From the IMG/VR virus record IMGVR_UViG_3300020465_000011, positions 1-64,000 of that record: a DNA stretch of 64,000 nucleotides; one strand, written 5' to 3'. Of the stretch, positions 33,239-61,298 are shown piece by piece; the first letter of the stretch is position 1; each line of letters starts with the position of its first letter. Position numbers and translations under genes: made by a program. The notes beneath the pieces are model-generated. The model was not told the DNA's origin, searched no databases, and worked only from the letters and a program-made list of their open reading frames with translations. The DNA comes from a virus.

Positions 33239-34084
33239 ATGAGTCACGAAGAAAAACAAGGCTGGTTAATTAATGCAGGTAATAACACACAATCTTATTA
33301 TCAAGCGGCCGCCGTTGCAATGTTAATAAAAATACACAGCAAATTATCTGTTGCTGTGATTATAGATAAAACAGAAAATTGGCCAAGCGAATATAACGAT
33401 TGTATAGATTACATAGTAGAATATCCATTTGGAGATTTAGATTATTCAAAACAATGTCCTCAAATAAATCAGTATCAATTTTATCATATTACACCGTTTG
33501 CAGAAAATATTGTAATTGAAGCAGATACGTTAGTATTAAGTGATGTAGATTATATAGTATCTCTATTAGACTCAAATCATGTTAATATTTTATTTCCTAT
33601 ACAGGTAACAGATTTTAGAGCTAAACCATATATACCATTGCATGTTTTAAACTTTCCAGAAAATAAAATAGAAATTGCACATGCAGGAATATGGCTTTTT
33701 AATGCAAATAAAGAATCCTTAGATTATTTTAAAATGTTAGATATAGTATGTCACAACTGGAGAGAATTGTTTAAAGAATATTTTAGACCAGAACACGTAC
33801 CAGAATATCCAGAGTTAGATGCAATGCATAGTGTTACACTAAAAATGTTAGACGAATATGAATCATCTACAGTTAATGATCCTTTACTACTAAGCTATTC
33901 ACATCTAATTAGTAAACCAGATCAAAAATGGAATGATCAAATGAATACTTGGTATACTAATAACTTTAAAGTAGATAACTATAGACAAAATGGAATTGTC
34001 AAATACACAGAACCAAGTGTAATTACAGGAACTATATTAAATGGAATCAGAGCCCATCATAGAAGTGCCAATAGAACCAGTTAA
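33239..34084 (+). CDS. Glycosyltransferase-like protein, paralogue of the upstream gene
   Basis: A 281-residue protein beginning one base after the preceding stop. It shares the plan of the upstream protein: GWLINAGN, YYQAAAVAMLIKIHSK, then ENIVIEADTLVLSDVDYIVS in place of the LLDIDYIVQSDA segment, and an AHAGIWLFNANKE acceptor-side strand. The DxD-like element is altered to EAD, so metal dependence may be lost. The Ala-Ala-Ala run near residue 23 is coded GCGGCCGCC. Probably works with its neighbour on the same glycan. The glycosyltransferase fold is inferred. Confidence 0.55.
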   Translation: MSHEEKQGWLINAGNNTQSYYQAAAVAMLIKIHSKLSVAVIIDKTENWPSEYNDCIDYIVEYPFGDLDYSKQCPQINQYQFYHITPFAENIVIEADTLVLSDVDYIVSLLDSNHVNILFPIQVTDFRAKPYIPLHVLNFPENKIEIAHAGIWLFNANKESLDYFKMLDIVCHNWRELFKEYFRPEHVPEYPELDAMHSVTLKMLDEYESSTVNDPLLLSYSHLISKPDQKWNDQMNTWYTNNFKVDNYRQNGIVKYTEPSVITGTILNGIRAHHRSANRTS

Positions 34085-35003
34085 ACATGAATGGTATGTT
34101 TATTATAGTAAATCGGGCATTATTAAAGAAATACATAGAGAAAAAATAGTTTCTAATTTAGACTATGTAATTACATTAGACCAAGAAGCTGGTAAAATTA
34201 TTTCTGGTCATGTTAACAAAAATCATTATTGTGTAAATTATAATTCAGAAAACGACTCAATTGAATTTATGCATAGAAAATATGCTGGTAATTTACAACC
34301 TCTAGAGTCATCATTATATCAGATACCTTTACAAACAGAAGCAATACCAGATCCAGATATAGGTGTACGATTATATCCTAATGACAATGTGCTAACAATA
34401 GATATTGGCAAAAGTTGTAAAAATAGATTAACCTGGGGTATACATGTATATGATATTAAAAATCCGCAAGGTTCATTTCTTAATATATACATTACAAAAA
34501 AAGATAACCCGGATTATTTGATACTTCAAGTTAAAGTAGATCCTATAGAATTAATAACACATGAACGAATACTAGTTGAATTACCAACTTCAGTATTACG
34601 TTATGTAAATTATAATGATATATCTATTTGGACAACTAGAATATTTGATGTTTACACATACAGATTAATTGAAACGTATGTTGATATTGATCCTAAGGAT
34701 AACCGCAGAATTAAAATAACAGAAGATTCAAACGACTGTCATATTACATTTAGTAGAACAAATGAAGGTAATATATATGTTAAAGGTACTAAAGATATTT
34801 TACAACTTTCTCCAGAAAAATTCTTGCAATTTTATGTAGTAGATGCTACAATAACAAGAGATATAGAAAGTAGATACTTGTTTACGTTAGATGTATCATT
34901 GAATGATATTATCGCAGGCATAGATATGGGATTTAAATATTCTATTCCAGAAAAGTTTCGAGTATTACACAAACATAAACTAAAAATAGGAACAACCGTA
35001 TGA
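34041..35003 (+). CDS. Hypothetical protein, beta-rich
   Basis: A 320-residue protein with no motif I recognise. It starts at ATG 34041, inside the end of the previous gene (44-nt overlap), and no later ATG is close by. The sequence is rich in alternating hydrophobic strands (VLTIDIGKSCKNRLTWGIHV, LRYVNYNDISIWTTRIFDVY) and looks like a beta-sandwich. Its ATGA overlap with the next glycosyltransferase-like gene places it in the same operon. Role unknown. Confidence 0.65.
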   Translation: MESEPIIEVPIEPVKHEWYVYYSKSGIIKEIHREKIVSNLDYVITLDQEAGKIISGHVNKNHYCVNYNSENDSIEFMHRKYAGNLQPLESSLYQIPLQTEAIPDPDIGVRLYPNDNVLTIDIGKSCKNRLTWGIHVYDIKNPQGSFLNIYITKKDNPDYLILQVKVDPIELITHERILVELPTSVLRYVNYNDISIWTTRIFDVYTYRLIETYVDIDPKDNRRIKITEDSNDCHITFSRTNEGNIYVKGTKDILQLSPEKFLQFYVVDATITRDIESRYLFTLDVSLNDIIAGIDMGFKYSIPEKFRVLHKHKLKIGTTV

Positions 35004-35986
35004 GTATGGCAAGTATAAATGAATTTGATATAGTTTTTATAAGTTATGATGAACCTAACGCCGATAGTAACTATGCACACTTATTAGAAATATGTCCGTG
35101 GGCAATGCGTAGTCACGGAGTATGGGGCAGTGATGCCGCTCATAAAGCGGCCGCGGCAATGTGTGAATCTGACAGATTTATTACAGTTGATGCAGATAAT
35201 AAAGTAAGACCAGAATTTTTTAATATGGAAGTCGACTTACGTAAGTTAGGAAAAAGTGATGTTATTAGTTGGGCAGGCAAAAATGCAGTAAACGGATTAG
35301 TGTATGGTAATGGTGGCATTAAACTTTGGCCTAAGCATGTTGTTGAACAAATGCGTACACACGAGGCCGCACCTGAAGAAGATGCTAAAGCTCAAGTTGA
35401 CTTTTGTTGGAACATTGGTTATGTACAAATGAATAACGTTTATTGTGATGTTATGAATAACGGATCACCACTACAAGCATGGCGTGCAGGATTTCGAGAG
35501 GGCGTTAAAATGACTTTGGACGGTGGTGATGTTGTTAATCCAGAAGTATTAAAACAACACGTACATTATAAAAACCTAACTCGTTTATTCACATGGATGA
35601 GTGTAGGTGAAGATAGTGTAAATGGTTTATGGGCAATGTATGGTGCTAGGCAAGGATGTTACATGACAAACATAGCACGTAAAGATTGGGACTGGAGACT
35701 CGTTAGAGATTTTACATGGTTAACTGAATTTTTTAAAGAAGATGTGTTCCCACAGTTTGCAGATGACAATGGTGAAATATGTGCTAATACTGGTATGCGT
35801 TGGAGTTTAGAAAAACTTAGAGCTTCAACTGCTAACTATGGTGTAGATATTAAAAAACATCTTAACTTACCTATTGCCGACCTAGATCCGGATGGTAGTA
35901 AGTTTTTTAAAGCAGTATACACAAATCCAACTAGACTTGAACCATTGGTCCGCGAAGATCAAGTCGAATACACCATAGAGGACTAG
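35000..35986 (+). CDS. Glycosyltransferase-like protein (phage FISYDEP family)
   Basis: A 328-residue protein. The N terminus FDIVFISYDEPNADSNYAHL, followed by HGVWGSDAAHKAAA and RFITVDADNKVRPEFF, is a GT-A-like nucleotide-sugar fold with a DAD metal motif. The family is common in marine T4-like phages and its acceptors are unknown. A second member with the same motifs lies at 55231. The start overlaps the previous stop by ATGA, and a second in-frame ATG follows two codons later. The run of four alanines is coded GCGGCCGCGGCA, avoiding GCA or GCT in the inner positions. Confidence 0.7.
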   Translation: MSMASINEFDIVFISYDEPNADSNYAHLLEICPWAMRSHGVWGSDAAHKAAAAMCESDRFITVDADNKVRPEFFNMEVDLRKLGKSDVISWAGKNAVNGLVYGNGGIKLWPKHVVEQMRTHEAAPEEDAKAQVDFCWNIGYVQMNNVYCDVMNNGSPLQAWRAGFREGVKMTLDGGDVVNPEVLKQHVHYKNLTRLFTWMSVGEDSVNGLWAMYGARQGCYMTNIARKDWDWRLVRDFTWLTEFFKEDVFPQFADDNGEICANTGMRWSLEKLRASTANYGVDIKKHLNLPIADLDPDGSKFFKAVYTNPTRLEPLVREDQVEYTIED

Positions 35987-35999: not shown

Positions 36000-37574
36000 A
36001 TGAATTTTAACGATATGAATTGGCACCGTTTTTCAAATGGTGTGCTTGAATGGAACGATCATAATGCTAATCAGATAAAATCTTTATTAGAACAGTCTGG
36101 TGGCTGTGGTATGTGTTTAGCTAAGTTCAAACAAGTAACATTACATTTAGGCACAGGTATGACCCATTCATGCCATCACCCGTCACCACATAAAATTCCT
36201 CGAGAAGAAATTGATAAAAATCCAGCGGCACTATTTAATACATTGCATCTTAAAAAAGCAAGAAAGCAAATGCTTAATAATGAAAAGCCAAGTGAATGTG
36301 ACTATTGCTGGAGAGTAGAAGCTGAAGGGCAAAAAAGTGATAGATTTTTTAAAAGTTTAGAAAATTGGGCCAGTGATTATTATGATGAAATAATTCAGTT
36401 AAATGGCAGTGAAGACATTTACCCAAGTTATTTAGAAGTAAGTTTTAGTAATGTTTGTAACATGAAATGTACATATTGTGGTCCTGAATTTAGTAGTAAA
36501 TGGGTAGAAGAGTTAAAACAATATGGTCCTATTCACTTAGCAACTAATACTGCAAAACAAGAAGTATTACATGCACAACACGATCTTCAAAATCTAACAT
36601 TTAAAAATCGAGAGTTTAATCCATACATTGATGCGTTTTGGAAATGGTTTCCAAAAGCTCTTCCTCATTTAAGACACTATCGTATTACAGGTGGTGAACC
36701 TTTAATGAGTAAAGAAACTTTTAGAACTATGAAATATCTAATTGAAAATCCAAATACCGAAATGGAATTTTCAGTTAATAGTAATCTTAGTGTCCCAGAT
36801 AAATTATGGGATGAATTTATTAAACTGTTAACTGAAATGAGAGATAAAGAAGTTGTTAAAAAAATTACTGTTTATACTAGTATTGAAGGTTGGGGAGAAC
36901 GTGCAGAGTATGCAAGAACAGGACTAAATTTTAATTTATTAAAATCTCGTGCTGAGCAAATTGCTCAAATGGATAATATTAGAATATCAGTGATGTCAGC
37001 ATTTAACGTATTAAGTATTACTAGTTTTAAACCATTATTAGAATGGATATTAGATCTCAAAAGAAAATATACTGTAAATGATACCAGTGAAACTGTTATT
37101 ATGCAAAAAACTGGATATGAAAATAGTACTGGAACAATGGATGAAATTCTTGCTCATAGAAAACGCAATCATTCACATACAATTACAGTTAGTATAGATA
37201 TTCCATATTTGAGATGGCCAGAATGGATGGACGTACACTTTTGCACAGAAGAATTGTTTACCAAGCATTTGTTACCAGCAATGAAATTTATGGCTGATAA
37301 TAATCCATCTAGTGTATGGAGTACAGAAATTGGATTTTTAAATGCCGAAGTTGAAAAATTAAAACGTGTTGTTATGCACCGTGCTTATTATAATCAAAAG
37401 AAAAAACCTGAACGCGAAGGTCATGATGATATTAGAGAAGGACGAGCAAAATTTTATGATTATATCAATGAAATGGATAATCGTAGAGGAACAAACTTTT
37501 TAGAAGTTTATCCAGAGATGAAAAATTTTTATAATACTTGTAAAGAAGCAAGAGAAACGTTTAACAATGTCTGA
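36000..37574 (+). CDS. Radical SAM enzyme with N-terminal twitch-type cluster domain (1)
   Basis: A 524-residue radical S-adenosylmethionine enzyme. The canonical CxxxCxxC that binds the reactive 4Fe-4S cluster is C153-NMK-C157-TY-C160. The SAM-binding GGEP follows in RITGGEPLMS. Ahead of the core is a cysteine-rich domain (C36, C39, C58 in SCHHP, C100 and C103 in CDYCW) that should hold an auxiliary cluster. This order, auxiliary domain first, is known from uncharacterised twitch-domain radical SAM proteins of marine phages. Substrate unknown. It opens a coupled series of related genes and overlaps the next by 8 nt. Confidence 0.88.
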   Translation: MNFNDMNWHRFSNGVLEWNDHNANQIKSLLEQSGGCGMCLAKFKQVTLHLGTGMTHSCHHPSPHKIPREEIDKNPAALFNTLHLKKARKQMLNNEKPSECDYCWRVEAEGQKSDRFFKSLENWASDYYDEIIQLNGSEDIYPSYLEVSFSNVCNMKCTYCGPEFSSKWVEELKQYGPIHLATNTAKQEVLHAQHDLQNLTFKNREFNPYIDAFWKWFPKALPHLRHYRITGGEPLMSKETFRTMKYLIENPNTEMEFSVNSNLSVPDKLWDEFIKLLTEMRDKEVVKKITVYTSIEGWGERAEYARTGLNFNLLKSRAEQIAQMDNIRISVMSAFNVLSITSFKPLLEWILDLKRKYTVNDTSETVIMQKTGYENSTGTMDEILAHRKRNHSHTITVSIDIPYLRWPEWMDVHFCTEELFTKHLLPAMKFMADNNPSSVWSTEIGFLNAEVEKLKRVVMHRAYYNQKKKPEREGHDDIREGRAKFYDYINEMDNRRGTNFLEVYPEMKNFYNTCKEARETFNNV

Positions 37575-39036
37575 TCCTCATGATTATAAAAAGAATATAC
37601 TAGATACAAAAAGCAAAACTTTTTGTGGAGCAAAATGGTATAATGCTACAATCTGGTTAGGACATGGTGCAACTACTAGTTGTCATCACCCACCTCCTCA
37701 TAAAATTGATCCTGAAGAAGTTAAAAAAGATCCTAGTGCGTTACACAATACAACTTATAAAAAACTTGTAAGAAAAGAAATGCAAGAAGGTGTTCAATGT
37801 AAAGAATGCGAATACTGTTGGAAGATTGAAAATTTAGAGCAAGACTTAATAAGTGATAGAGTTTATAAAAGTAACATATATGATGATGAAAAGCTACAAG
37901 AAGCATTTGACTCCAATTGGAGGAAGAGTTTTAATCCTATTAATTTAGAAATTGCATTTGATGCCAACTGTAATTTTGCATGTAGTTATTGCAATGCTGG
38001 GTTTAGTACTACATGGGCACATGATGTTAAAAAGAACGGACCGTACAAAGATTTGCTTAGTGACGGTTGGGGTGCATTTGCAACTGAAGGTAATTGGGCT
38101 CAGCCGTATGGTTTAAAAAATGAAGGTAATCCATATATTGAAGCATTTTGGAAATGGTGGGAAAGTGACTTACAGTATTCATTGAATGAACTTCGTGTTA
38201 CTGGAGGAGAAGCAACTGTTAGTAAAGATTTTTGGAAACTAGTTAATTGGTTTGAAAAGAATCCAGGGTGTAAGGTAAATTTAGCAGTAAATACAAATCT
38301 AGGAATTAAAAAAGACAGGTTAAAAAAACTTATTAATAGTAGTAAATTTATTAGAAAGTTAGACATATATTCTAGTAACGAAAGTTTTGGACCACAGTCA
38401 GAATATATACGTGATGGTTTAATATGGAAAGATTGGTTTGAAAATTCTGAAACATTGTTAACTGAATCTAATGCAGGTTATCATGTTATGCTAACACTAA
38501 ATGCATTATGTTTAGGAAGTTTGGATAAATTTCATGAAGCTATATTTGAATTAAAAAGTAAAACAGGTAAGAATATATATTTGAGTTATAATATATTACG
38601 ATTTCCTAGTTTTCAAAGTATTACAACATTACCTAAACATATTAGAGATGAGAGGTCTGAATATTATCAAAAATGGCTAGATAAAAATAAACAACATTTG
38701 AATAGACATGAAGTTGATGGAATGGACAGAACAATCAGCTACATAAAAAATGTTGACGAAGGACATAGTGTAAAAGAACTAAGCGACTTATCTTGTAGAC
38801 AAAATGACTTCTTTAATTTTTATAGTCAATATGACGTAAGAAGAAACAAAGTATTTGCAAGAGCATTTGGTGACTGGCCTGATCTTATTGAATGGTATAC
38901 ATCTTTAGCAGGAAATATTAATCACCGCGATATATCTGAACCTATTGAAGCAAATGCAGTTGATTGGGGTAAAGATATATATGATGGCGTAATAGAAGAT
39001 GCCATTAAGCAAGGTTTAGTCAATGGACCGGCGTAA
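37567..39036 (+). CDS. Radical SAM enzyme with N-terminal twitch-type cluster domain (2)
   Basis: A 489-residue paralogue of the previous enzyme. The radical SAM motif is C135-NFA-C139-SY-C142. The auxiliary domain has C20, C39 (SCHHPPPHKI, nearly the same as SCHHPSPHKI in gene 1), C78, C81 and C84. The SAM-binding segment reads TGGEA rather than GGEP. The close match of the SCHHP segment suggests a recent duplication from gene 1. The C-terminal third is unlike known domains. It overlaps both neighbours, so expression is coupled. Confidence 0.87.
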   Translation: MSDPHDYKKNILDTKSKTFCGAKWYNATIWLGHGATTSCHHPPPHKIDPEEVKKDPSALHNTTYKKLVRKEMQEGVQCKECEYCWKIENLEQDLISDRVYKSNIYDDEKLQEAFDSNWRKSFNPINLEIAFDANCNFACSYCNAGFSTTWAHDVKKNGPYKDLLSDGWGAFATEGNWAQPYGLKNEGNPYIEAFWKWWESDLQYSLNELRVTGGEATVSKDFWKLVNWFEKNPGCKVNLAVNTNLGIKKDRLKKLINSSKFIRKLDIYSSNESFGPQSEYIRDGLIWKDWFENSETLLTESNAGYHVMLTLNALCLGSLDKFHEAIFELKSKTGKNIYLSYNILRFPSFQSITTLPKHIRDERSEYYQKWLDKNKQHLNRHEVDGMDRTISYIKNVDEGHSVKELSDLSCRQNDFFNFYSQYDVRRNKVFARAFGDWPDLIEWYTSLAGNINHRDISEPIEANAVDWGKDIYDGVIEDAIKQGLVNGPA

Positions 39037-39919
39037 AATACTACTAGTATCTCCTACTTTAAGTGATTCTTTATTTTTTTGTCAAGTAACAGGACATCAT
39101 TTAAATGTTCTCTGGCCGGGCTGGTGGAACGGCTTAAATGAAAAATATGGTTCATTTGAGATTATAACCAAATTTGGTGTAACACGTGGTGATGATGCTA
39201 ATAAAATTTACGGATCGTGGAACAAGGAAGGCTGTTTACAATTTCTAGAAGATATGAAGAACTATGATGGTTATCTTACTAGTATAAAGTTAGATAGCTA
39301 TAACTATCTTTATAATAATGGTTTACTAGATAATCTTAAAGAAGCAAGTAAGGATTGTTATCATATTTTACTTTTTAAAAGAGATTTTATAGATACAGTT
39401 CTAAGTTTATGTTTACTTAATAGTGAAGAACAAAGTGTAGATGATCCTAATGATGGTTTAAAACGTCGTCGATGGTACGAATCAACAGATCCTGTCACAG
39501 TTACTAAAGAACATGTAATAGATCAATTTTATTATCTGTTTGAAACATACGCAGATTTTATCCTAGGAAATAAATTTGGTATCAAATTTGATGAAATAAT
39601 GTTTTCTGAAGAGCTTAGAAATGTAAAAACATTTAAACAGATAATGGAAAAAACAAAACTTGCCAAGGACTGGAATTATGAAGGTATTCCAATGGCTGGC
39701 CCGGACCCTAGTATTAGTTTCAGTAAGCAAGGTTATATTTCAAACTACTATCAAACAGTATTTTGGATCATTGAATTACTTCAATTAAATATAGATAATA
39801 TACATGTCCCAACTAATCAGCCTGAATTTAAAAATATTGATTGGGGGATTGATTTGAGTCAACAAGTTTCTATATTATCTAGATGGGTAAAACAGGCTCG
39901 AGATTGGAATAATAAATGA
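39023..39919 (+). CDS. Hypothetical protein, possibly sulfotransferase-like
   Basis: A 298-residue protein set between radical SAM genes and overlapping the upstream one by 14 nt and the downstream one by ATGA. The segment CYHILLFKRDFIDTVLSLCL recalls the YLVRDPRDVVVS element of PAPS-dependent sulfotransferases, and SPTLSDSLFF near the N terminus stands where a phosphate loop would be, but the loop is not convincing. I therefore leave the function open. The tight packing implies that it acts on the same substrate as its neighbours. Confidence 0.6.
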   Translation: MDRRKILLVSPTLSDSLFFCQVTGHHLNVLWPGWWNGLNEKYGSFEIITKFGVTRGDDANKIYGSWNKEGCLQFLEDMKNYDGYLTSIKLDSYNYLYNNGLLDNLKEASKDCYHILLFKRDFIDTVLSLCLLNSEEQSVDDPNDGLKRRRWYESTDPVTVTKEHVIDQFYYLFETYADFILGNKFGIKFDEIMFSEELRNVKTFKQIMEKTKLAKDWNYEGIPMAGPDPSISFSKQGYISNYYQTVFWIIELLQLNIDNIHVPTNQPEFKNIDWGIDLSQQVSILSRWVKQARDWNNK

Positions 39920-41349
39920 CTGTATTGCATAAAGTTCCTAAAGGACTTGATAAAAAAACAGAAGAGACTTTACCAGAGACAAATGTAGAACGATTTAATC
40001 GTATGAAAAAGAATAAAAGTTTCTGTGCGGCTCCATGGTTACATATTCATAGTTTACCACAAGGTTATATTATGCCTTGTTGTATGTGGGATTATGGCAT
40101 ATTTAAAGAAAACCCATATCGATATGGAAATATGCGTGATGTTAAAAATATAAATGAAGCTTTAAACAGTGACCAATTTAAAAAACTTAGACTTCAAATG
40201 ATGGCAGGAGAAAAAATTAAAGGTTGTATCAGATGTTACGATAGAGAAGTTCATGCTCCTCCCAGTGGGAAAGAAGCCGAACAATATTCGATGCGAGGTT
40301 GGTTCAATGAATACTTCTTTAGAAGAAGCCATGAATATCATGACATGGCAGATTACGTTATGGGAACACAACCAGACGGAACAATACATGATATAAAGAT
40401 ACGTTATCTAGACATTAGGTTTGGAAATATTTGTAATCTTAGATGTAGAATGTGCGGACATGGATTGAGTAGTACATGGTATGACGAAGAAAAGAAAATA
40501 AATCCACATCGAGGCCTTCAAAAATTTATTCATACTGATTGTTATGATAAGATAGAGGAATATCTTCCTCATGTAACAGAAATATACTTTGCTGGCGGTG
40601 AGCCATTTTTATATCCTGAACATTTAAAAATGTTGGATAAATTAATTGAGGTAGGAAATACTAATTGTAGTATAAAATATAATACCAATCTAACTACTTT
40701 AAAGTATAAGAAAAGAAGTTTACTAGATGTGTGGAAACGATTTCCAAATGTTCATATAGGTGCCAGTATAGACGGTATGGGAGATACCGTCGAATATATT
40801 AGAACAAATATGAATTGGAAAGATTTTAAAAATAACTTTCAGCGTGTCAAAGAGGAATGTCCACATGTTAGTATTACCGCTTCACCTACAATAGGAGTGT
40901 TCAATATTGAAACATATCCTGAATTTGATAGATTTCAAATTGAAAATGGGTGGACCAATGGACACCACGCAATTAACTATATTATGGCACCCGATGAGAT
41001 GAATATATATTTCATGCCAACTTGGTATAAGGATAAGTTAATAAAAATATACGAAGAGCATCGCGATTGGATATACAATACTATAGGCGTTGCAAATAAA
41101 CATGCACTAAGAATAAATGAAATAATAAAAAGATTACAAATAGAACATGCAACTCCTGAAGAGGTTGATAAACATATGGCTCGTTTGCATCATAAACTTG
41201 AATTATATGATGATACAGCAGGATTAAATTGGAAGAAATCAATGCCTCATCTGGACGCTATGCTCAAAATGCATTTTTATAAAAGACAACAAAATCTCCA
41301 AGATTCTGAATTAGCTGAACTTCCTAAAGGCTGGGGAGAAGTTAAGTGA
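39916..41349 (+). CDS. Radical SAM enzyme with N-terminal SPASM/twitch-like domain (3)
   Basis: A 477-residue enzyme. Core motif C173-NLR-C177-RM-C180, with GGEP in IYFAGGEPFLYPEHLK and a later SIDG motif (GASIDGMGDTVEYIR). The N-terminal domain reads FCAAPWLHIHSLPQGYIMPC: C37, C55 and C56, then C104 and C107, the SPASM-like CxxPW...PCC...CxxC arrangement placed before the core instead of after it. Ala-Ala of CAAPW is coded GCGGCT. Substrate unknown. Its stop lies in a GTGA overlap with the next radical SAM gene. Confidence 0.88.
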   Translation: MTVLHKVPKGLDKKTEETLPETNVERFNRMKKNKSFCAAPWLHIHSLPQGYIMPCCMWDYGIFKENPYRYGNMRDVKNINEALNSDQFKKLRLQMMAGEKIKGCIRCYDREVHAPPSGKEAEQYSMRGWFNEYFFRRSHEYHDMADYVMGTQPDGTIHDIKIRYLDIRFGNICNLRCRMCGHGLSSTWYDEEKKINPHRGLQKFIHTDCYDKIEEYLPHVTEIYFAGGEPFLYPEHLKMLDKLIEVGNTNCSIKYNTNLTTLKYKKRSLLDVWKRFPNVHIGASIDGMGDTVEYIRTNMNWKDFKNNFQRVKEECPHVSITASPTIGVFNIETYPEFDRFQIENGWTNGHHAINYIMAPDEMNIYFMPTWYKDKLIKIYEEHRDWIYNTIGVANKHALRINEIIKRLQIEHATPEEVDKHMARLHHKLELYDDTAGLNWKKSMPHLDAMLKMHFYKRQQNLQDSELAELPKGWGEVK

Positions 41350-42545
41350 AGAAATATTGTGTAATGCCATGGATAGGACTTGAAGTTAATAACAATGGAA
41401 ATTTGAGACCGTGTTGTGTTTATAAAGATCAAATCAGAGATGAACAGGGCAAAACTTTTAATATTAATAATAACACAATAGAAGAATATGCTAACAGTAA
41501 ATCAATGATTGAACTTAAAGAGAAACTTATAAATGGACAAGAGCCATGGGGCTGTATTAAATGTTATGAAGAAGAAAGTCTAAATGTTGCTAGTCTGCGT
41601 CAACGAAAAAACAAGTATTATAAAGATTATATTACAAAATCAGTAGAAGCTGTAGACTTGATTTCTGTTGATTTAAAATTAAGTAACTTGTGTAATCAAA
41701 AATGTGTAATTTGTAATACTGGTGCTAGTAGTTTATTAGCTTCTGAAAATAAACAAATTCTGCCAGAGCTGAACATCGACTGGAATAAAACACAAGATCT
41801 ATATCATTGGTATAAAAAAGATGAAGTATGGAGTGAGCTAGAAGCAAAAACACAAGCAACACAACATTTTGATTTTTTTGGCGGTGAGCCATGGCTTATA
41901 AAAAAGCAATGGGAATTTCTTAAACATCTAATAGATTCAGATAGATGTAAATGGGTATCATTGAATTATGCTACCAATGGTAGCATACATGATGATGCAT
42001 ACTTCACTGAATACTTTTCTAAATTTAGAGATGTTTCTATATTATATAGTGGTGATGGAATTGAAAATTCGTTTGAATACAATAGATTTCCAGGAAAATG
42101 GGAAACATATAAAAACAATGTTCTTAAAGCTAAAAAGTTTCAAGTTGATAATAGTATTTCATGGATGGGAGTTGCATATACAGTAAGTGCATACAGTATA
42201 CATAATGTCATTGAGGCCATGGATTTTTATACAAAAAACAATGTTGAAGTATGGTTTAATATGGTAAATGAAGATGAACTGTGTGCAGGAGTATTACCTG
42301 ATGATGTTAAAAAAGCAATACGGAAAAATATTAAAGAAGGATGGCGATCAGATTTTACTACACTAGATAAAAATATTGATACTGCATTTTTTGAACAACA
42401 ATTAGATAGAGAAGTTAGTAGTAACTGGAAAAAAGTATTTGTGAAGAAAACTAATGCACGTGACAAATTTAGAGGAGTTGATTTTACTAAGTTAATTCCA
42501 ATGGCTTCGCTTAAAGAATTTTTAGGCAGGGACGCATCATGGTAG
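41346..42545 (+). CDS. Radical SAM enzyme with N-terminal SPASM/twitch-like domain (4)
   Basis: A 399-residue enzyme with GTG start inside the GTGA overlap. Core motif C116-NQK-C120-VI-C123, SAM-binding FFGGEPWLIKKQW. The N-terminal auxiliary domain begins KKYCVMPWIGLEVNNNGNLR, with C5, C23, C24, C70 and C73. Closest in layout to gene 3. Overlaps the next gene by 7 nt. The reaction cannot be assigned: enzymes with this domain order include uncharacterised phage proteins only, as far as I know. Confidence 0.87.
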   Translation: MKKYCVMPWIGLEVNNNGNLRPCCVYKDQIRDEQGKTFNINNNTIEEYANSKSMIELKEKLINGQEPWGCIKCYEEESLNVASLRQRKNKYYKDYITKSVEAVDLISVDLKLSNLCNQKCVICNTGASSLLASENKQILPELNIDWNKTQDLYHWYKKDEVWSELEAKTQATQHFDFFGGEPWLIKKQWEFLKHLIDSDRCKWVSLNYATNGSIHDDAYFTEYFSKFRDVSILYSGDGIENSFEYNRFPGKWETYKNNVLKAKKFQVDNSISWMGVAYTVSAYSIHNVIEAMDFYTKNNVEVWFNMVNEDELCAGVLPDDVKKAIRKNIKEGWRSDFTTLDKNIDTAFFEQQLDREVSSNWKKVFVKKTNARDKFRGVDFTKLIPMASLKEFLGRDASW

Positions 42546-43819
42546 AGCCTCAATATAATATATGCAGTAAAATGTGGACAGATTTGAATATAAATTTTCA
42601 AAAGAAAACTTTCCAACATTGTTGTAAACAGGTGCATCAACCAATATCATTGATTGAGATTGATAAATTAAAGGCAGATGTATTTGATTTTCATGAACGT
42701 AATGTAAGAAATAGAAAGATCAGCATTGATCATAACATGTTACCTCCTGATTGTCAATGGTGTATATCTACTGCTCCTAATAATATTAAAAAAGTTTGGA
42801 ACATATGGGAAGACGAAGATCTAGATGAATATCAGAAAACCAATGATCTTGCAACTCTTAAAAAAACTTCTAGAACTGCATACATTGATTTAGATATTGG
42901 AAATAGTTGTGATTTAGCATGTGTCTACTGCGGGCCATGGAGTAGCACAACATGGGCTAAAGAATTAGGTCAAATTAAATCTGCTAGAAATTTCATTGAC
43001 CCGGAATGGAAGGAAAAAATACTAGAGAACTTATCTCTTTATTTGTTAAAGTTAGACAGTACTGAAAAAATTGTTTTTAATATACTAGGCGGAGAACCGT
43101 TGTTAATTGTTGATACATATGAAATTATTTCATATCTAAGTAATAACTGTAAGCACTTTAAACAAAAACCTATACTAATGATTACAACAAATTTAAATTG
43201 TAAACCTGCAAGTTTAAAAAAGTTATTAGAAACTTTAGAAGAAACTAAGGACATTTTTGAATGGAACATAAGTGTCAGTATAGAAGATATTAATATACGT
43301 GCAGAACAAGTAAGATATCATTTAGATTTTAATAAATTTGAAAATAATCTTAAAGCTATTAAAAATGCACCAGATAAGATATATGTAACAGCTACTTTAA
43401 GTATTTTTAGTTTTCCTAACTTTCATGAGTTCATTAATTGGATTTTTTGGGTCCTAGGGGTTGAAAACTATAATAAGACTTGGGATTTTACTTTAAACAA
43501 TGTACAAGAAGGATTCACTGACTTAGCGTATTGTCCTCGCGAGTTAATAGATATAGATAAAATTAAAAACACATACAATACACTTATCAAAGACATAACA
43601 GATAGAAACGAACATAAAGTTAGAAATGTTATGGATCATCTAGATAATATGTATCAACGTTCAGGAACTAAGAAACCAGGAAGAGAGTTTTATGGTTTCT
43701 GGGACAAAATGAGTAAAAGAAGAAATGTAGATTATTTTACAATTTATCCATTGACGTCAATGAAATTTCCATGCAACTTGGAAGATAATAAGTTAGTAAC
43801 CAATGATCAGATTTCATGA
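42539..43819 (+). CDS. Radical SAM enzyme with N-terminal twitch-like domain (5)
   Basis: A 426-residue enzyme. Core motif C124-DLA-C128-VY-C131 in IGNSCDLACVYCGPWSSTTW, SAM-binding LGGEPLLI. The N-terminal cysteines are C9, C28, C29, C72 and C75 (CQWC). The CGPWSSTTWAKEL stretch resembles gene 1 (CGPEFSSKWVEEL), so the two are related. It overlaps the next radical SAM gene by 17 nt. No substrate information. Confidence 0.86.
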   Translation: MVEPQYNICSKMWTDLNINFQKKTFQHCCKQVHQPISLIEIDKLKADVFDFHERNVRNRKISIDHNMLPPDCQWCISTAPNNIKKVWNIWEDEDLDEYQKTNDLATLKKTSRTAYIDLDIGNSCDLACVYCGPWSSTTWAKELGQIKSARNFIDPEWKEKILENLSLYLLKLDSTEKIVFNILGGEPLLIVDTYEIISYLSNNCKHFKQKPILMITTNLNCKPASLKKLLETLEETKDIFEWNISVSIEDINIRAEQVRYHLDFNKFENNLKAIKNAPDKIYVTATLSIFSFPNFHEFINWIFWVLGVENYNKTWDFTLNNVQEGFTDLAYCPRELIDIDKIKNTYNTLIKDITDRNEHKVRNVMDHLDNMYQRSGTKKPGREFYGFWDKMSKRRNVDYFTIYPLTSMKFPCNLEDNKLVTNDQIS

Positions 43820-44960
43820 ATTAGAAAGAATTCATATTGAGTTAAGCTCTGCTTGTAATGCGGCCTGCCCTGCATGTCCAAGAAATGTCGACGGAGGATA
43901 TACTATACCATGGTTAACAACACGAACTTTATCCTTTGAAGATTTTATAAAAATATTCACCAGTGAAGTTTGTCAACAACTTAAAACAATTTTAATGTGT
44001 GGAAATTATGGTGATCCTATTTACTGTAAAGATTTGCCAAAAATATTAGAATACTTGTGGAAGGAAAATACAAGACTACATGTACATGTTCATACCAATG
44101 GTGGTGTACGAAGTCCGGAGTGGTGGAGTGCTTTAGCAAAATCTAATCCTAAGTTATTGGTTGTTTTTAGTATAGACGGTCTAGAAGATACAAATCACAT
44201 ATATAGAAGAAATGTTAACTGGCAGAAACTAAGAGAAAATATTATTGCGTATATAAAAGTTGGAGGTCATGCAATATGGGAATTTCTTATTTTTAAACAC
44301 AATCAACACCAAATCAATGATGCTAGACAGATGTCAATTGAATTAGGGTTTATAGATTTTAAAGCTAAACGTGCATTTGGATTTGAAAACGTTGCTAATA
44401 GCTATAATTCAATGAGGGTGTTAGATAATATAGGAAACGTAGAGTATTTTATACAGCCTCCAGATAACGAAGAATTTAGAAATAAAAACTTTCAAACAGA
44501 AGATACAGAGCGATATGATTATTCGGCTAATAATAGTTTACCATTGGATGCTTATGAAGTAGCTTGGAGTCAACGTGATAATAATTTTAATTATGTGCTT
44601 AATGCTGAACTTAAAGATTACGAAAAACTAGATGGTACTGAAATATCATGCATGACTAAAAATTCTAAAGAAATATATATTGACAGTAATGGAAATGTAC
44701 ACCCTTGCTGTTTTTTAGGAATAGGCAGTCAAAATGTTACACTTGCAAGTGACACTATGCAATACCATAAATGGCTTAAAGAGAATATAGAGTTAGATAA
44801 AACTAATGCTAAAAATTATTCACTTAGGCAAATATTAGATACTAACTTTCTATCTAAGATAGAAAACACATGGAACAAAACACACAAAGAAGGAAGATTA
44901 ATGTGTTGCACTAGAATGTGTATAAGAAATAAAAGTGCAACAGATAAATTATACGTATGA
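43803..44960 (+). CDS. Radical SAM/SPASM enzyme (6), canonical domain order
   Basis: A 385-residue enzyme with the core motif at the very N terminus: C18-NAA-C22-PA-C25-PRN. The SAM-binding segment is CGNYGDPI (GDP instead of GGEP), and FSIDGLED follows. The C-terminal SPASM domain has cysteines at about 282, 301-302, 367-368 and 372 (SCMTKNSKEIYIDSNG, HPCCFLG, MCCTRMC). It is thus built in the usual order, unlike genes 1-5. SPASM enzymes modify peptides or small carbohydrates (the BtrN type lacks part of the domain). Coupled by ATGA to the methyltransferase gene. Confidence 0.88.
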   Translation: MIRFHELERIHIELSSACNAACPACPRNVDGGYTIPWLTTRTLSFEDFIKIFTSEVCQQLKTILMCGNYGDPIYCKDLPKILEYLWKENTRLHVHVHTNGGVRSPEWWSALAKSNPKLLVVFSIDGLEDTNHIYRRNVNWQKLRENIIAYIKVGGHAIWEFLIFKHNQHQINDARQMSIELGFIDFKAKRAFGFENVANSYNSMRVLDNIGNVEYFIQPPDNEEFRNKNFQTEDTERYDYSANNSLPLDAYEVAWSQRDNNFNYVLNAELKDYEKLDGTEISCMTKNSKEIYIDSNGNVHPCCFLGIGSQNVTLASDTMQYHKWLKENIELDKTNAKNYSLRQILDTNFLSKIENTWNKTHKEGRLMCCTRMCIRNKSATDKLYV

Positions 44961-45721
44961 CACAACTAATAGATGAATGTAAAGTAATGGCATTAATGAA
45001 TGACATGCTTGTTCAAAGTATGATAATTCGAGACATAACACAAAGAACGTGTAGTAAACCTACACGGAGACGAATACTAGAACTGGGTTCAGGCGGTGGC
45101 GGCTGGACAAAAATTATACATAAACTCAGTGAAGAATCCGGTAATCCTCCGCTTGATGTAGGTTGGACATTGGTAGAAAATTTTATGTGGATGGAAGACA
45201 ATTATCAAGGTGATTGGCCAACTACCAAGGAGGAATTAAGAGAAGCTGTTAAGGACATGATTCCACATGCTATTCTTGAAAATATATACGATCATAGCGT
45301 AACACAATTAATCTCTGACAGAGAGTTTAATAATTGTTATAACAATAATATTTCTTTCATGCGAATCGATGTTTCAGCAACATACCAAGAAATAGAACAT
45401 TTAATTAAACATAACTTAGATGATGATGCTATGATTATAATCGACGATACTAGAATGAACTGTGGAATAGAAAGAATATATTTGTTGTTTGAACTAATTA
45501 GAAATAACTTAGGATATCCTGTTTGGTTTGGAGAAAAAGAAAGTATGCTATGTAAAAATCCAGATAGAGCTAAATTTTATAGTAATTGGTTAGCAGAAGC
45601 ATTAAAAGAAAAAAACTACAATATATATTGGAATCAAGAGTATAAAGTATTTTTTGGCATAGATTGTTATTTTACAACAACTACCCCGTTTAATATATTT
45701 GTATCTCAGGTAAAGGAATAA
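44957..45721 (+). CDS. Class I SAM-dependent methyltransferase
   Basis: A 254-residue protein whose residues 38-48 (RRILELGSGGGGW) match motif I of class I methyltransferases. The acidic strand ends DAMIIIDDTRMNCGIERIYL suggest motif IV. It is not closely similar to the four tandem methyltransferases at 57736-63232. Located between radical SAM genes 6 and 7 and coupled upstream by ATGA, it may methylate the same product. Acceptor unknown. Confidence 0.72.
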   Translation: MTQLIDECKVMALMNDMLVQSMIIRDITQRTCSKPTRRRILELGSGGGGWTKIIHKLSEESGNPPLDVGWTLVENFMWMEDNYQGDWPTTKEELREAVKDMIPHAILENIYDHSVTQLISDREFNNCYNNNISFMRIDVSATYQEIEHLIKHNLDDDAMIIIDDTRMNCGIERIYLLFELIRNNLGYPVWFGEKESMLCKNPDRAKFYSNWLAEALKEKNYNIYWNQEYKVFFGIDCYFTTTTPFNIFVSQVKE

Positions 45722-45723
45722 AA

Positions 45724-46569
45724 ATGCAACTTATATTCAATGATCATTCATTAGAATTAGAATTGTACAATACAAATTTTGTAGACGCTTGGTGTAATTG
45801 GGTATTCAATGAAAGTAATGAATTAGATTTAAATTTTGATTATAATAGAGTAAAACAACTGCACAGTGAAAGACTAACACTAATAGACAAGTTAGATACA
45901 ATTTTAAATGCTGTTAATGAAATAGCAGTAAGTATGGGGTTGCCTGACAAATGGCATTATGAATTATCTAACTTATACGATAGTAATTTTTTACAACGAA
46001 CACACGAACAATGGGCTATGATATCAAAAGAAGCAAATGAAAAGCACTTGCCTTTGTATGATGCACAGGTAGCAGAAATATGGAATGCTCATAATCAAAA
46101 ACTCGCAGAGCAATCTAAACATTATAATGACATTAATTCATGGGTGCATCACATTGAATTTCAATACAAATTTTTCTCAATGTCCAGAGTTATGTTTAAT
46201 AGATCTGACGAAGCAATTAAAAGTTATAATATCACACCAAGTGATACCAGTTTCATTAAAGATGCAGTTACAATACCTTTCAATGATATTGGCAGACCTC
46301 AATATGAAAAATTTTGTATAAGTGGCAATGTAACAAATCCTGAGATAAGCAATTATAATAACGTTATTAATGCAGTAGAGTTATCAAGTACTCCTGTACA
46401 AACTCCAATTGATCCTAGATTTATTACTACTTGTGAACAGCAAGGAGTTGAACAATGGGGGCCTAATGTTTGTGTTGCTAAAAACAAAGAAATAGATACT
46501 CAGCTGATGGGATATACAGTAATTAGTAATTTTACTGAAGGAGAGAATAGGATGATATTAAAAAGGTAG
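45724..46569 (+). CDS. Hypothetical protein within the radical-SAM operon
   Basis: A 281-residue protein that I do not recognise. It begins with strands (MQLIFNDHSLELELYN) followed by a helical middle (RTHEQWAMISKEANEKHLPL) containing many Trp, His and Asn, and contains only four Cys, so it is not an iron-sulphur enzyme of the neighbouring type. Spacing is two bases after the methyltransferase and four before radical SAM gene 7. It might be a partner or a substrate-carrier, but nothing in the sequence proves this. Confidence 0.65.
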   Translation: MQLIFNDHSLELELYNTNFVDAWCNWVFNESNELDLNFDYNRVKQLHSERLTLIDKLDTILNAVNEIAVSMGLPDKWHYELSNLYDSNFLQRTHEQWAMISKEANEKHLPLYDAQVAEIWNAHNQKLAEQSKHYNDINSWVHHIEFQYKFFSMSRVMFNRSDEAIKSYNITPSDTSFIKDAVTIPFNDIGRPQYEKFCISGNVTNPEISNYNNVINAVELSSTPVQTPIDPRFITTCEQQGVEQWGPNVCVAKNKEIDTQLMGYTVISNFTEGENRMILKR

Positions 46570-46573
46570 CTCA

Positions 46574-47635
46574 ATGGATTTATCCAATAATTTAAAAAAC
46601 AGATATTGCCCTAAACTTTTTACCTTTTTTGAAGTTAGTTGGAATGGCGACTGTTGGCTTTGTTGTCCTGCATGGTTACCTAACAAAATAGGAAATATAT
46701 TAACCCAGAGTTTTGATGAAATATGGAATGGTGATACAGCAAAGGAACTAAGAAATCAAGTGTTTACTGGAAATTGGAACTATTGTCAACATGAAGTGTG
46801 TCCTCAAATTGTGCAAAACCAGTTACCAGATTTAAGTGAAGCGGTTGCTAATAGTCCTGTTAAAAAACAACAAACACATGTTGAGACTCTTCCAACTATA
46901 ATTAATTTCAGTGAAGATGAAAGCTGTAATTTGCAATGCCCTAGCTGTAGACTTTATAAGAAAATGTGGAAAAAAGGCACACCCCAATATAATTCACGCA
47001 AGAGAATTAATGACAATGTACAAGAAATTTTCTTTAAGACTCCTACAGACAGATACTTTGAAATAAATGTTACCGGAAGTGGCGATCCTTTTGGTAGTAT
47101 CATTTATAGAGAAATGTTACAGTCAATTGATGGCAGAAAATTTCCAAATTTAAAAGTTAACTTAAACACAAATGCAGTGATCTTTACTCCTAAAAATTGG
47201 CATAAGATATATAAAATACATAACAATTTGCAAAACTGTAGAATAAGTTTTGATGCAGGAACAAAACATACGTACGAAACAAAAACTCGAATTGGTGGTA
47301 ATTGGGATATATTATTAAAGAACTGTAGGTTTTTAAATGAAAGATCAAAAGAATTTGAAAATTTTAATTTACACTTTGACTTTGTAGTACAATATGACAA
47401 CTATCATGAAATGAAAGATTTTGTTAAATTAATATTAGATAACTTTGATAATGCACATAGTATACATTTTTCAAAAATAATTGATTGGAAGACTTGGAGC
47501 CCCGATAAATACAATTCTAAAGCAGTTTGGAAAGAAACACATCCAAATCATCATGATTTCCTAGAGCATTTAGCTGATGATATTTTAAACCACAAATTGG
47601 TTTTCCTAGGTAATTTATATCAATATAGAAAGTAA
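46574..47635 (+). CDS. Radical SAM enzyme with N-terminal twitch-like domain (7)
   Basis: A 353-residue enzyme. Core motif C118-NLQ-C122-PS-C125. The SAM-binding segment is VTGSGDPFGS, a GDP variant as in gene 6. The N-terminal auxiliary domain starts YCPKLFTFFEVSWNGDCWLC, with C12, C27, C30, C31, C71 and C76, followed by GNILTQSFDEIWNGD, the GNL...EIWN pattern usual just after an SPASM PCC. It therefore combines the N-terminal cluster of genes 1-5 with the GDP-type core of gene 6. Last radical SAM gene of the first block. Confidence 0.87.
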   Translation: MDLSNNLKNRYCPKLFTFFEVSWNGDCWLCCPAWLPNKIGNILTQSFDEIWNGDTAKELRNQVFTGNWNYCQHEVCPQIVQNQLPDLSEAVANSPVKKQQTHVETLPTIINFSEDESCNLQCPSCRLYKKMWKKGTPQYNSRKRINDNVQEIFFKTPTDRYFEINVTGSGDPFGSIIYREMLQSIDGRKFPNLKVNLNTNAVIFTPKNWHKIYKIHNNLQNCRISFDAGTKHTYETKTRIGGNWDILLKNCRFLNERSKEFENFNLHFDFVVQYDNYHEMKDFVKLILDNFDNAHSIHFSKIIDWKTWSPDKYNSKAVWKETHPNHHDFLEHLADDILNHKLVFLGNLYQYRK

Positions 47636-47640
47636 CATTT

Positions 47641-48312
47641 ATGAAAGTAGTAGCTGTTATACCGGTCCGTAAAGGTTCCGAACGAGTTATATCTAAAAAT
47701 ACAAAACCTTTTGCAGACACAACACTTTTAGATTTAAAATTAGAAGTTATGAAACAAGTAAAGGGTTTAGATAATCTTATTGTTAACACAGACTGTGATA
47801 TTTGCATAGATATTGCAAAAAATCATGGAGTAGAAATACATAGACGTGATGATTATTTTGCTTCATCTCTTGCAAATAATCGTGAACATTGGACTAATTT
47901 AGCAGAAGTAACTGATACTGATATACTAATGATGTGTCAATGCACAAATCCAATGGTAACAGTTACAACACATGAACAAGCATTAACAGATTATCTAGCG
48001 TCTATAGATCAGTATAATAGTGCTATATCAGTATCAGCACAAAAAAAGTTTTTATGGCAAGATGGTTCTCCTATAAATTATGATTTTAATAAAACTCCTA
48101 AGAGTCAAAATCTGCCAGACATTGTATCATTAAATTTTGCTATCACTATTAGTAACAAGCAAGAAATGTTTAAAACAGGAAATGTCATTTCAGCTAATCC
48201 AAAGTTTATAGAATTAGATAGTATCCAATCATTGGATGTAGACTGGCCAATAGATTTTGAGTTTGCTGAATATGTTTATAAAAAGCATGGACTAGATTGG
48301 GTGTTATCATGA
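47641..48312 (+). CDS. CMP-sugar synthetase (acylneuraminate/KDO cytidylyltransferase family)
   Basis: A 223-residue nucleotidyltransferase that activates a sugar acid with CTP. Residues 7-24 (IPVRKGSERVISKNTKPF) are the CTP-binding loop of NeuA-type enzymes, MCQCTNPMV is the family QxTxP segment, and the C-terminal SLDVDWPIDFEFAEYV carries the metal-binding acidic pair. It would make CMP-sialic, -legionaminic, -pseudaminic or similar acids. The exact sugar cannot be read from sequence. Followed by ATGA-coupled epimerase. Length is typical for the family. Confidence 0.85.
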   Translation: MKVVAVIPVRKGSERVISKNTKPFADTTLLDLKLEVMKQVKGLDNLIVNTDCDICIDIAKNHGVEIHRRDDYFASSLANNREHWTNLAEVTDTDILMMCQCTNPMVTVTTHEQALTDYLASIDQYNSAISVSAQKKFLWQDGSPINYDFNKTPKSQNLPDIVSLNFAITISNKQEMFKTGNVISANPKFIELDSIQSLDVDWPIDFEFAEYVYKKHGLDWVLS

Positions 48313-49223
48313 TATTAGTTACAGGTGTTGCAGGATTTATTGGAGCAAAAGTTGCCGAGTCATTAATAGAAGCAGGTGAAACTATAGTCGGTGTAGATGA
48401 TTTATCAACAAGTGATTTATCTAATGTACCAAACGATGTCATATTTGAAAACTTTGATTTAGCTGATACACAACTTGTAAGTAAACTAGAAAAGCATGGT
48501 AACTTTAAAACAATATATCATATTGCTGGACAAAGTGGTGGTGAGCCTAGTTACGATAATCCGTTACAAGATCTTAATAGTAATACTGCTAGTACATTAA
48601 ATTTATTACAACTAGCACTTAAATCACCAGATTGTGTTTTTGTATATGCATCGACAGTATCAGTGTATGGCAAAAATGGAAAAACGCATTTGCAGAATGA
48701 GCATGATTTATGTAGACCTGAATCGTTTTATGGTGTAGGTAAAGTTGCCAGTGAAAACTATCTACGTATATACGCTGAGCAATATGGATTAAAAACACGA
48801 TCTCTTAGGTTATTTAATATATACGGCCCCGGACAAAATTTAAATAACCTAAGACAAGGCATGGTAAGTATTTTTATAGCACAAGCAATTAATAATGGTG
48901 AAATTATTGTAAAAGGTTCTAGCGATAGATACAGAGACTTTGTTTATATTGATGATGCTGTAACAGCATTTAAACTTGCTTCCGATTATCTAGCATCGGG
49001 TTACTTTGTGTTTAATATTTCAACAGGTATAAAAACTACAGTAAAAGAAGTTTGTTCATTAATTGGTGATGTACCAGTAAAGTATAGCAACCCTACACCA
49101 GGAGATGTCCATGGTTATACTGGAGATTTTAGTAGAGCAAAAGATTTATTGGGTTGGGTTCCTAAAACATCATTCAGTGACGGAATAGCTAAAATGCTAG
49201 AGTGGGCAAATAATCAGCAATAA
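48309..49223 (+). CDS. NAD-dependent sugar epimerase/dehydratase (extended SDR)
   Basis: A 304-residue enzyme of the UDP-glucose 4-epimerase type. Residues 3-12 (LVTGVAGFIG) form the GxxGxxG NAD-binding turn; the catalytic pair is Tyr141-x-x-x-Lys145 (YGVGK) with Ser/Thr before it (ASTVSVYG); RLFNIYGPGQ and YRDFVYIDDAV are further family marks. I set the start at ATG 48309, in an ATGA overlap with the upstream gene, rather than at the in-frame TTG at 48297. It would epimerise or dehydrate a nucleotide-activated hexose for the glycan pathway. Confidence 0.88.
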   Translation: MILVTGVAGFIGAKVAESLIEAGETIVGVDDLSTSDLSNVPNDVIFENFDLADTQLVSKLEKHGNFKTIYHIAGQSGGEPSYDNPLQDLNSNTASTLNLLQLALKSPDCVFVYASTVSVYGKNGKTHLQNEHDLCRPESFYGVGKVASENYLRIYAEQYGLKTRSLRLFNIYGPGQNLNNLRQGMVSIFIAQAINNGEIIVKGSSDRYRDFVYIDDAVTAFKLASDYLASGYFVFNISTGIKTTVKEVCSLIGDVPVKYSNPTPGDVHGYTGDFSRAKDLLGWVPKTSFSDGIAKMLEWANNQQ

Positions 49224-49254: not shown

Positions 49255-50016
49255 ATGTCTTATAAAGATATTATAAGAGAAGAAGGTTATACTATTATAC
49301 CAAAGTTTTTTAATGATGACGAGGTATTTAAATTACAAACATTAAATGATAATGTAGGACCAGAAAAAGGCCAACATAAAGAGTTAGGGTGGCAAAAAGA
49401 AGCAGACTCTACTAGAGAAAATTATATACATTATTGGAGTCATCAATGTAAGGAAGAAACTGTTTGGATACAAGAAAAATTACATCCTGTTATAAGTGAT
49501 ATAATGTTAGAAAACTATAAATGGTTTGCTATAGACTTTCACGTAACTAATCCAGGTAGTCAATATATTCATGCACACATAGATTATCCATATGCGTTTA
49601 GGCCATGGCATTATATGACAGAACTACTTGCTGTACAATGTTTAATTGCTGTAGATAATTTTACTATTGCTAATGGTGGTACAGCAATATTGCCAGGTTC
49701 ACATGTGAACAGTTATCCACTTGACAAAATGGGCAGTAGTGAATTAAATGATGAATTAGTAAATAATGGCTATAACTTTGTGGCACCAGCTGGTAGTTTA
49801 TTAATATATCATCCTCGTTCGTTACACAGCACAATGCCAAATAATACTACAAAACCTCGTAGTGCATTATTAATGTTAGCAGTAAAGCCTGACATTGTTA
49901 AAGGACTTAGTCGTTTTCATAATGTTAATAAAGAAGATTTTGAAGATGATATACCATTGACAAATGAGATGAATTATGCTAGACTAGATAAACTAATGGG
50001 ACATATTAGAAAATGA
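49255..50016 (+). CDS. PhyH-family Fe(II)/2-oxoglutarate dioxygenase
   Basis: A 253-residue oxygenase. The iron ligands are visible: His108-x-Asp110 in YIHAHIDYP and the distal His191 in PRSLHSTMPN, with Arg202 (KPRSALLM) placed to hold 2-oxoglutarate. LPGSHVNS is a further PhyH family mark. It would hydroxylate a small molecule or sugar-linked substrate. Clear GGAG ribosome site. Located after the sugar epimerase, it probably tailors the same product. Ends in an ATGA overlap with the next gene. Confidence 0.85.
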   Translation: MSYKDIIREEGYTIIPKFFNDDEVFKLQTLNDNVGPEKGQHKELGWQKEADSTRENYIHYWSHQCKEETVWIQEKLHPVISDIMLENYKWFAIDFHVTNPGSQYIHAHIDYPYAFRPWHYMTELLAVQCLIAVDNFTIANGGTAILPGSHVNSYPLDKMGSSELNDELVNNGYNFVAPAGSLLIYHPRSLHSTMPNNTTKPRSALLMLAVKPDIVKGLSRFHNVNKEDFEDDIPLTNEMNYARLDKLMGHIRK

Positions 50017-50664: not shown

Positions 50665-50943
50665 ATGATAAAAGTATTCTTTATCGCAAAGATAAAAAAT
50701 TTAAATGCAGACTATAAAAATAGAAGCACAAGACTACGCAAAATGGCAGAATCAATGCCAGGCTTTGTTTCAATTGAATCAGAAGAAATAGATGATGTTG
50801 AAATTACTGTTAGTACATGGCGTAGTAAAGAAGATGTACAAGAATGGGCACAAGATTTAACGCATGTTGAAGCAAAACGCAAACACCAAGAATGGTATCA
50901 TTGGGTGCGTGGCATACACGTTGAAACTGTAGATGACGAGTAG
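50665..50943 (+). CDS. ABM-like (dimeric alpha/beta barrel) protein
   Basis: A 92-residue protein resembling the antibiotic biosynthesis monooxygenase (ABM) fold: VFFIAKIKN strand, a helix ending MAESMPGFVSIESEE, then the EITVSTWRSKEDVQEWAQD strand-helix and KHQEWYHWVRGIHVE. Members act as cofactor-free oxygenases or simply as ligand-binding barrels. It overlaps the carbamoyltransferase start by 11 nt. No catalytic residues can be assigned. Confidence 0.65.
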   Translation: MIKVFFIAKIKNLNADYKNRSTRLRKMAESMPGFVSIESEEIDDVEITVSTWRSKEDVQEWAQDLTHVEAKRKHQEWYHWVRGIHVETVDDE

Positions 50944-60910: not shown

Positions 60911-60919
60911 GAGAGGTAA

Positions 60920-61294: not shown

Positions 61295-61298
61295 AGAT

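Follow-up and report, generated by a model that had tools for sequence, protein, structure and literature searches.

Why should a phage encode seven different radical S-adenosylmethionine (SAM) enzymes, one directly after another, next to its tail-fibre genes? The question is raised by a 64-kb stretch (the window) of the 68.5-kb virus record IMGVR_UViG_3300020465_000011, in which positions 36000 to 47635 hold seven intact radical SAM genes, rS1 to rS7, in a single operon. A first-pass annotation, made from the sequence alone, had proposed such a translationally coupled operon, and the gene starts, cluster motifs, family searches and overlaps all bear this out. All seven products are recognized as radical SAM proteins by family search; each gene is open from its assigned start, and each product carries the superfamily-defining combination of a CxxxCxxC motif with a GGE- or GDP-type SAM segment, which reads GGEP in rS1, rS3, rS4, and rS5, GGEA in rS2, GDP in rS6, and GSGDP in rS7. 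Most neighbouring genes were said to overlap by 4 to 17 nt, which holds up to position 44957 (overlaps of 8, 14, 4, 4, 7, 17, and 4 nt); from there on, the genes are separated by gaps of 2, 4, and 5 nt. Against the NF033640 (N_Twi_rSAM) profile, rS1 to rS7 score 310, 278, 354, 270, 138, 47, and 71 bits, respectively, with E values from 1e-105 to 3e-12, so that their identity as radical SAM proteins is far beyond chance.

Five of these enzymes share an uncommon domain order. In rS1 (36000 to 37574, plus strand, as are all genes of the operon), rS2 (37567 to 39036), rS3 (39916 to 41349), rS4 (41346 to 42545), and rS5 (42539 to 43819), the twitch domain, which carries the auxiliary cluster, lies N-terminal to the radical SAM core, which is the NF033640 architecture. 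The auxiliary cysteines noted in the first-pass annotation are thus present, and their position in these five proteins can be specified as preceding the core. The first four proteins match NF033640 over the full length and above its curated cut-off of 170 bits, rS5 matches over the full length but below the cut-off, and rS6 (core match only) and rS7 fall far below it. The four-Cys twitch motif, C-x18/19-C-x41-47-C-x2-C, is found in all of rS1 to rS5 (C39, C58, C100, and C103 in rS1, with core cysteines C153, C157, and C160; C37, C55/56, C104, and C107 in rS3, with core cysteines C173, C177, and C180). Its general form was counted in 1,178 of 1,255 homologues, and the four cysteines are invariant in the twitch alignment. 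The remaining two enzymes differ in layout: rS6 (43803 to 44960; PF04055, E = 2e-9; phrog_21308) has a SPASM-like domain in the usual C-terminal position (PF13186, E = 5e-4, residues 283 to 358), whereas rS7 (46574 to 47635) has an N-terminal SPASM match (PF13186, E = 3e-10).

A profile of the twitch domain alone, searched against PDB, matched BtrN, the 2-deoxy-scyllo-inosamine dehydrogenase (E = 5.5e-5), and the anaerobic sulfatase-maturating enzyme anSME (E = 2.5e-3), with no further chain at E ≤ 0.5. The domain is therefore BtrN-like, with the same kind of four-Cys auxiliary cluster, although it sits at the opposite end of the chain: the twitch domain of BtrN is C-terminal to the core. Structure prediction, which the first-pass annotation had put forward as a check, gave fair models (pLDDT [predicted local distance difference test] 84 for rS3), and whole-model fold searches matched only the generic radical SAM barrel at a template modelling score of ~0.3; they were rejected as a guide to function.

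The array is neither recent nor confined to this virus. A scan with rS1 yielded 80 loci (all locus counts here are approximate, as the scans may share contigs and the genes come from a simple open reading frame [ORF] caller). Two relatives, one represented by a single 172-kb contig (loci L009 and L437) and the other by locus L013, keep the order rS1-rS2-rS3-rS4-rS5-rS6-MT44-hyp45-rS7, with insertions, at 45 to 79% identity. In a tree of 88 proteins, each of rS1 to rS5 groups with genes in the same position in other phages, and the ratio of nonsynonymous to synonymous substitutions (dN/dS) against the nearest relatives is ~0.09 to 0.28 for the radical SAM genes, where dS is not saturated. From the conserved order, the positional clades and the low dN/dS, the array genes can be judged to be under purifying selection, as ancient paralogues maintained as separate enzymes and not recent copies, in agreement with the earlier view of them as diverged genes. 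Two outcomes that the first-pass annotation had named as fatal to its proposal, loss of the cluster motifs in close relatives and placement in unrelated families without synteny, were not encountered: the motifs are retained, and the order of rS1 to rS7 is kept in the two relatives. Gene decay was accordingly rejected, and the suggestion that the enzymes catalyze successive steps of one pathway gains support from the conserved motifs, the preserved order and the positional clades.

Arrays of this type, frequently of 4 to 6 genes, are common in the viral contigs of IMG/VR (three scans, at least 600 matches each). A scan with the rS3 family gave 80 loci, most of them with 3 to 6 radical SAM genes and the longest run being eight; at L066, a locus from the rS1 scan, nine stand in succession. 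Three contigs that came up as bacterial matches (L109, L155, and L156) have the gene order of the phages and were counted among them. Across a whole phage contig, there are as many as 21 family matches, with 15 in the nearest relative and 9 to 21 in the large contigs of the group. An A-type Fe-S carrier (PF01521) is encoded in 8 of 12 array phages, the only phages in which it was counted. Among 50,697 phage records, rS1, the partner family X described below and the glycosyltransferase h35000 have essentially no counterpart. Outside phages, a chromosome of a Bacteriovoracaceae metagenome-assembled genome carries an eight-gene array of N-twitch radical SAM genes (L097:6040-18036), whose flanks read by eye as rpmA, obg, and lgt and whose members fall into several of the same subfamilies as rS1 to rS5; several N-twitch clusters also occur in other Bdellovibrionota genomes. 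The bacterial neighbourhoods were of no use as a guide to the substrate, with no consistent partner among 90 neighbours. Two variants were also seen: a single 735-aa chain with two radical SAM cores (L155:7038-9245) and a 1037-aa frame that holds two N-twitch units (G026).

Clustering of neighbouring genes revealed a partner that we call X, a family of 270 to 365 aa (~365 aa where first seen; for example, L323:14680-15777) located directly after a radical SAM gene. It has no Pfam match and no useful PHROG or PDB match. A scan from X alone, with a profile built from trimmed iterations, found 80 X genes, 68 of them immediately preceded by an N-twitch radical SAM gene, against a background of 11% for other genes; in 79 of the 80 loci such a gene lies within three genes of X, the sole exception being on a 6-kb contig. 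The operon itself encodes a candidate remote member of the family, hyp45 (45724 to 46569), which aligns with X in hhalign over 225 to 230 collinear columns, with a probability of 91% or 54% depending on the direction of the comparison, and with hmmsearch scores at noise level; a direct scan with hyp45 gave no pattern match. On these profile alignments, hyp45 probably belongs to X. The gene before it, in relatives as well, is MT44 (44957 to 45721), a methyltransferase-like gene with a weak match to the sugar O-methyltransferase model TIGR04371 (E = 0.0065). The only other non-radical-SAM gene inside the operon, hyp39 (39023 to 39919), is without a family match; its KRDFIDTVLS segment looks, by eye only, like a sulfotransferase motif. 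Other parts of jumbo genomes hold shorter paralogues of X, beside genes that by eye read as gp32, UvsX, and UvsW; in L480 (1013-1834) and L483 (6161-6982), a short paralogue lies between gp32-like and UvsX-like genes, with an extra radical SAM gene beside the L483 copy only.

The setting of the operon points to host recognition. Sequence similarity places the phage near the jumbo T4-like phages: its baseplate wedge protein, at 11265, is nearest (35 to 43% identity) to those of Atu_ph07 (490 kb), SCTP-2 (440 kb), and Escherichia phages of 350 to 380 kb. Upstream of the array lie a giant open frame of 4702 aa, probably a VrlC-like tail protein (14837 to 28945), and the tail-fibre-type structural genes h28975, h29568, and h30651 (28975 to 31763, plus strand); one of their PHROG matches is to a virion structural family, the others are to families of unknown function, and the gene order is kept in relatives. 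In pelagimyophages, a giant gene is followed by a hypervariable host-recognition island that holds tail fibres, glycosyltransferases and radical SAM cassettes, the last of these mentioned but not analysed (PMC7029224). The window has the same layout, with glycosyltransferases in an island past the giant gene and the tail fibres. The block from the tail-fibre genes through gt32, gt33, h34041, and h35000 to rS1 is preserved in many more loci than the full array.

Sugar genes surround the operon on both sides. On the plus strand upstream are gt32 (32305 to 33237), a GT8-like glycosyltransferase candidate with the motif LLLDIDYI and no Pfam match; its diverged relative gt33 (33239 to 34084); and, directly before rS1, h35000 (35000 to 35986), a probable GT-A glycosyltransferase with a VDADN motif in which D64 and D66 are conserved. 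One member of the h35000 family matches PF00535 (E = 4e-4); PDB searches with the X, h35000, and gt32 profiles gave nothing useful. In 205 radical SAM loci, the gt32/gt33 family is represented in 124 and the h35000-type family in 147, with 118 copies immediately beside a radical SAM gene; the same loci include carbamoyltransferase (35), SGNH esterase-like (40), uridine diphosphate-sugar dehydrogenase (25), and epimerase (23) families. Conversely, in 36 of 80 loci found with the h35000-type glycosyltransferase there is no radical SAM gene, as if the radical SAM enzymes acted downstream of the glycosyltransferase. The cultured Vibrio phages K566 and KVP40 likewise have N-twitch radical SAM genes among or near glycosyltransferases: in K566, four of them alternate with three glycosyltransferase genes (two GT8, one GT4-like), and in KVP40, gene 0272 is two genes away from a PF00534 glycosyltransferase. 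A radical SAM gene of this kind is also present in each of CZ01 and QD01, KVP40-type phages that grow on V. natriegens Vmax, a laboratory strain. They differ from the array in having other glycosyltransferase families and fewer radical SAM genes, and no X was found in the K566 stretch. Downstream of the operon, the window encodes a cytidine monophosphate (CMP)-sugar (cytidylyl)transferase (47641 to 48312; PF02348, E = 3e-13), an NAD-dependent sugar epimerase/dehydratase (48297 to 49223; PF01370, E = 1e-51), a PhyH-type Fe/2-oxoglutarate (2OG) dioxygenase (49255 to 50016; PF05721, E = 8e-16), a NodU/CmcH-like O-carbamoyltransferase (50933 to 52459; PF16861, E = 3e-50; phrog_1601), and the h35000 paralogue h55231 (55231 to 55935), a glycosyltransferase candidate, all on the plus strand, as well as a GT8-type glycosyltransferase on the minus strand (53641 to 54354; PF01501, E = 2e-5).

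The reading that we prefer, with a rough probability of 45%, is that the array is a multi-enzyme redox tailoring pathway for a glycan built by the phage at its tail-fibre locus. In such a pathway, gt32, gt33, h35000, and h55231 would make or attach the sugar, and each radical SAM enzyme would abstract a hydrogen at a different position by means of the 5'-deoxyadenosyl radical generated from SAM on the CxxxCxxC cluster, with the electron taken up by the four-Cys twitch cluster, as in BtrN. The outcome would be ketone, epimer or deoxy positions; the methyltransferase, carbamoyltransferase and dioxygenase genes would complete the unit, and either the adhesin or the host surface would bear the decorated glycan. 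An unusual sugar or glycoside, the leading idea of the first-pass annotation, remains favoured by the glycosyltransferases beside arrays in unrelated phages and by the resemblance of the twitch domain to BtrN. Also in favour of the glycan pathway are the widespread four-Cys motif, the low dN/dS, the Fe-S carrier genes of the array phages, and two radical SAM fusions, one to FkbM in a Hyphomicrobiales genome and one to Methyltransf_24 in a phage. Several points weigh against it. The glycan substrate, like the chemistry of each step and the location of the product, is something we infer; gene co-location is weak by itself because host-recognition islands are rich in sugar genes anyway; the chromosomal arrays of Bdellovibrionota show no clear sugar locus; the fold searches rank the peptide-modifying SkfB first and the sugar enzyme BlsE second; and sugar chemistry alone does not account for X.

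The partner X is also the reason why a protein substrate stays a candidate, as the main competing explanation, though a less likely one. The radical SAM enzymes would then modify protein residues directly, by proteusin-like epimerisation, methylation or cross-linking, and the target or carrier would be X (hyp45) itself or a virion adhesin. The near-obligate linkage of X to N-twitch genes is consistent with this, as are the two of five short X paralogues that adjoin another kind of radical SAM gene (L483 and L481), an X-methyltransferase fusion, and SkfB, a peptide maturase, as the top fold match. FkbM methyltransferases act in proteusin pathways too. However, 640 consecutive radical SAM gene pairs have a median gap of -8 nt and just 9 gaps of at least 100 nt; because the genes overlap or abut, there is no space for the small precursor peptide gene expected of a ribosomally synthesized and post-translationally modified peptide (RiPP) operon, which counts against the radical-modified peptide alternative raised at first. 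No RiPP recognition element was matched by Pfam in the operon proteins, and the chains of rS4 and rS5 open with the twitch domain, so that a peptide-recognition domain could not fit ahead of it; X may be a separate binder. Furthermore, the conservation of X, with invariant residues spread along the chain, is that of a folded protein, and some of its paralogues have no radical SAM neighbour.

That the genes are independent cassettes of unrelated function, collected in a hypervariable island, seems improbable. Pelagimyophages do differ from one another in the radical SAM cassettes of this region (PMC7029224), the arrays are not constant in length or membership from locus to locus, and additional radical SAM genes lie elsewhere in jumbo genomes; but the translational coupling, the order kept in L013 and L437, the positional clades, and the Bacteriovoracaceae array that spans several of the same subfamilies all argue for a unit. 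There is a still slimmer chance that the role of the enzymes lies in host takeover or metabolism, such as cofactor, nucleotide or viperin-like counter-defence chemistry, with no structural product. The array enzymes have weak similarity to viperin, MoaA, and QueE, and Fe-S carrier genes are present in the same phages. This similarity, however, is limited to the common radical SAM core, the operon has no cofactor or nucleotide pathway genes, and the array sits beside the tail-fibre block.

T4-like phages with many radical SAM genes and the NF033640 family itself are already known, both without a function. Campylobacter phages CP220 and CPt10, also T4-like, have 11 and 12 radical SAM genes, partly in interchangeable modules and, unlike the array, clustered with glycine amidinotransferase (PMC2853527); with rS1 or rS3 as a query, tblastn gave no match in them, and only rS8 (below) showed weak similarity. 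The T4-like environmental virus TARA_ERS488813_N000010 was reported in 2017 to have 12 radical SAM genes and an A-type Fe-S carrier, and the relevant passage gives gene content only, with no array order, partner or pathway (PMC5332604); the CP220 and CPt10 report dates from 2010. What the array phages add is the use of the NF033640 family in ordered multi-gene arrays. No description of the ordered array, X or their function was found in the open-access full texts searched, and the pathway has a real chance of being new. Tentatively, and at somewhat less than even odds, we suggest an undescribed biosynthetic system of large aquatic phages, in which coupled twitch radical SAM enzymes, five to nine in a set order and with X as their dedicated partner, would install several radical-made modifications on a single glycan or glycoprotein encoded by the phage, by a route distinct from known glycan and RiPP pathways. 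Radical SAM enzymes are costly, as they require many Fe-S clusters and must be handled with care; even so, the large contigs of this phage group carry 9 to 21 family matches and often an Fe-S carrier of their own. That distinct enzymes are conserved as an ordered series, with a partner specific to them, suggests a product worth the expense. Because K566 and KVP40 have related loci, the question can be addressed in cultured phages.

The eighth radical SAM core indicated by the first-pass annotation is real but lies outside the operon. The gene, rS8 (58376 to 59710, plus strand), encodes the core (PF04055, E = 5e-5, residues 228 to 395), preceded by a region that weakly matches 2OG-Fe(II) oxygenases (E = 0.0013), and has no NF033640 match. 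It overlaps by 4 nt a Cys-rich ORF without a family match (59707 to 60036, plus strand), which may be a detached SPASM-like tail of rS8; the split could be natural or a sequencing frameshift. Four small methyltransferase-like genes at 57736, 60023, 61444, and 62594 (region 57736 to 63232) share an LDxGCG motif.

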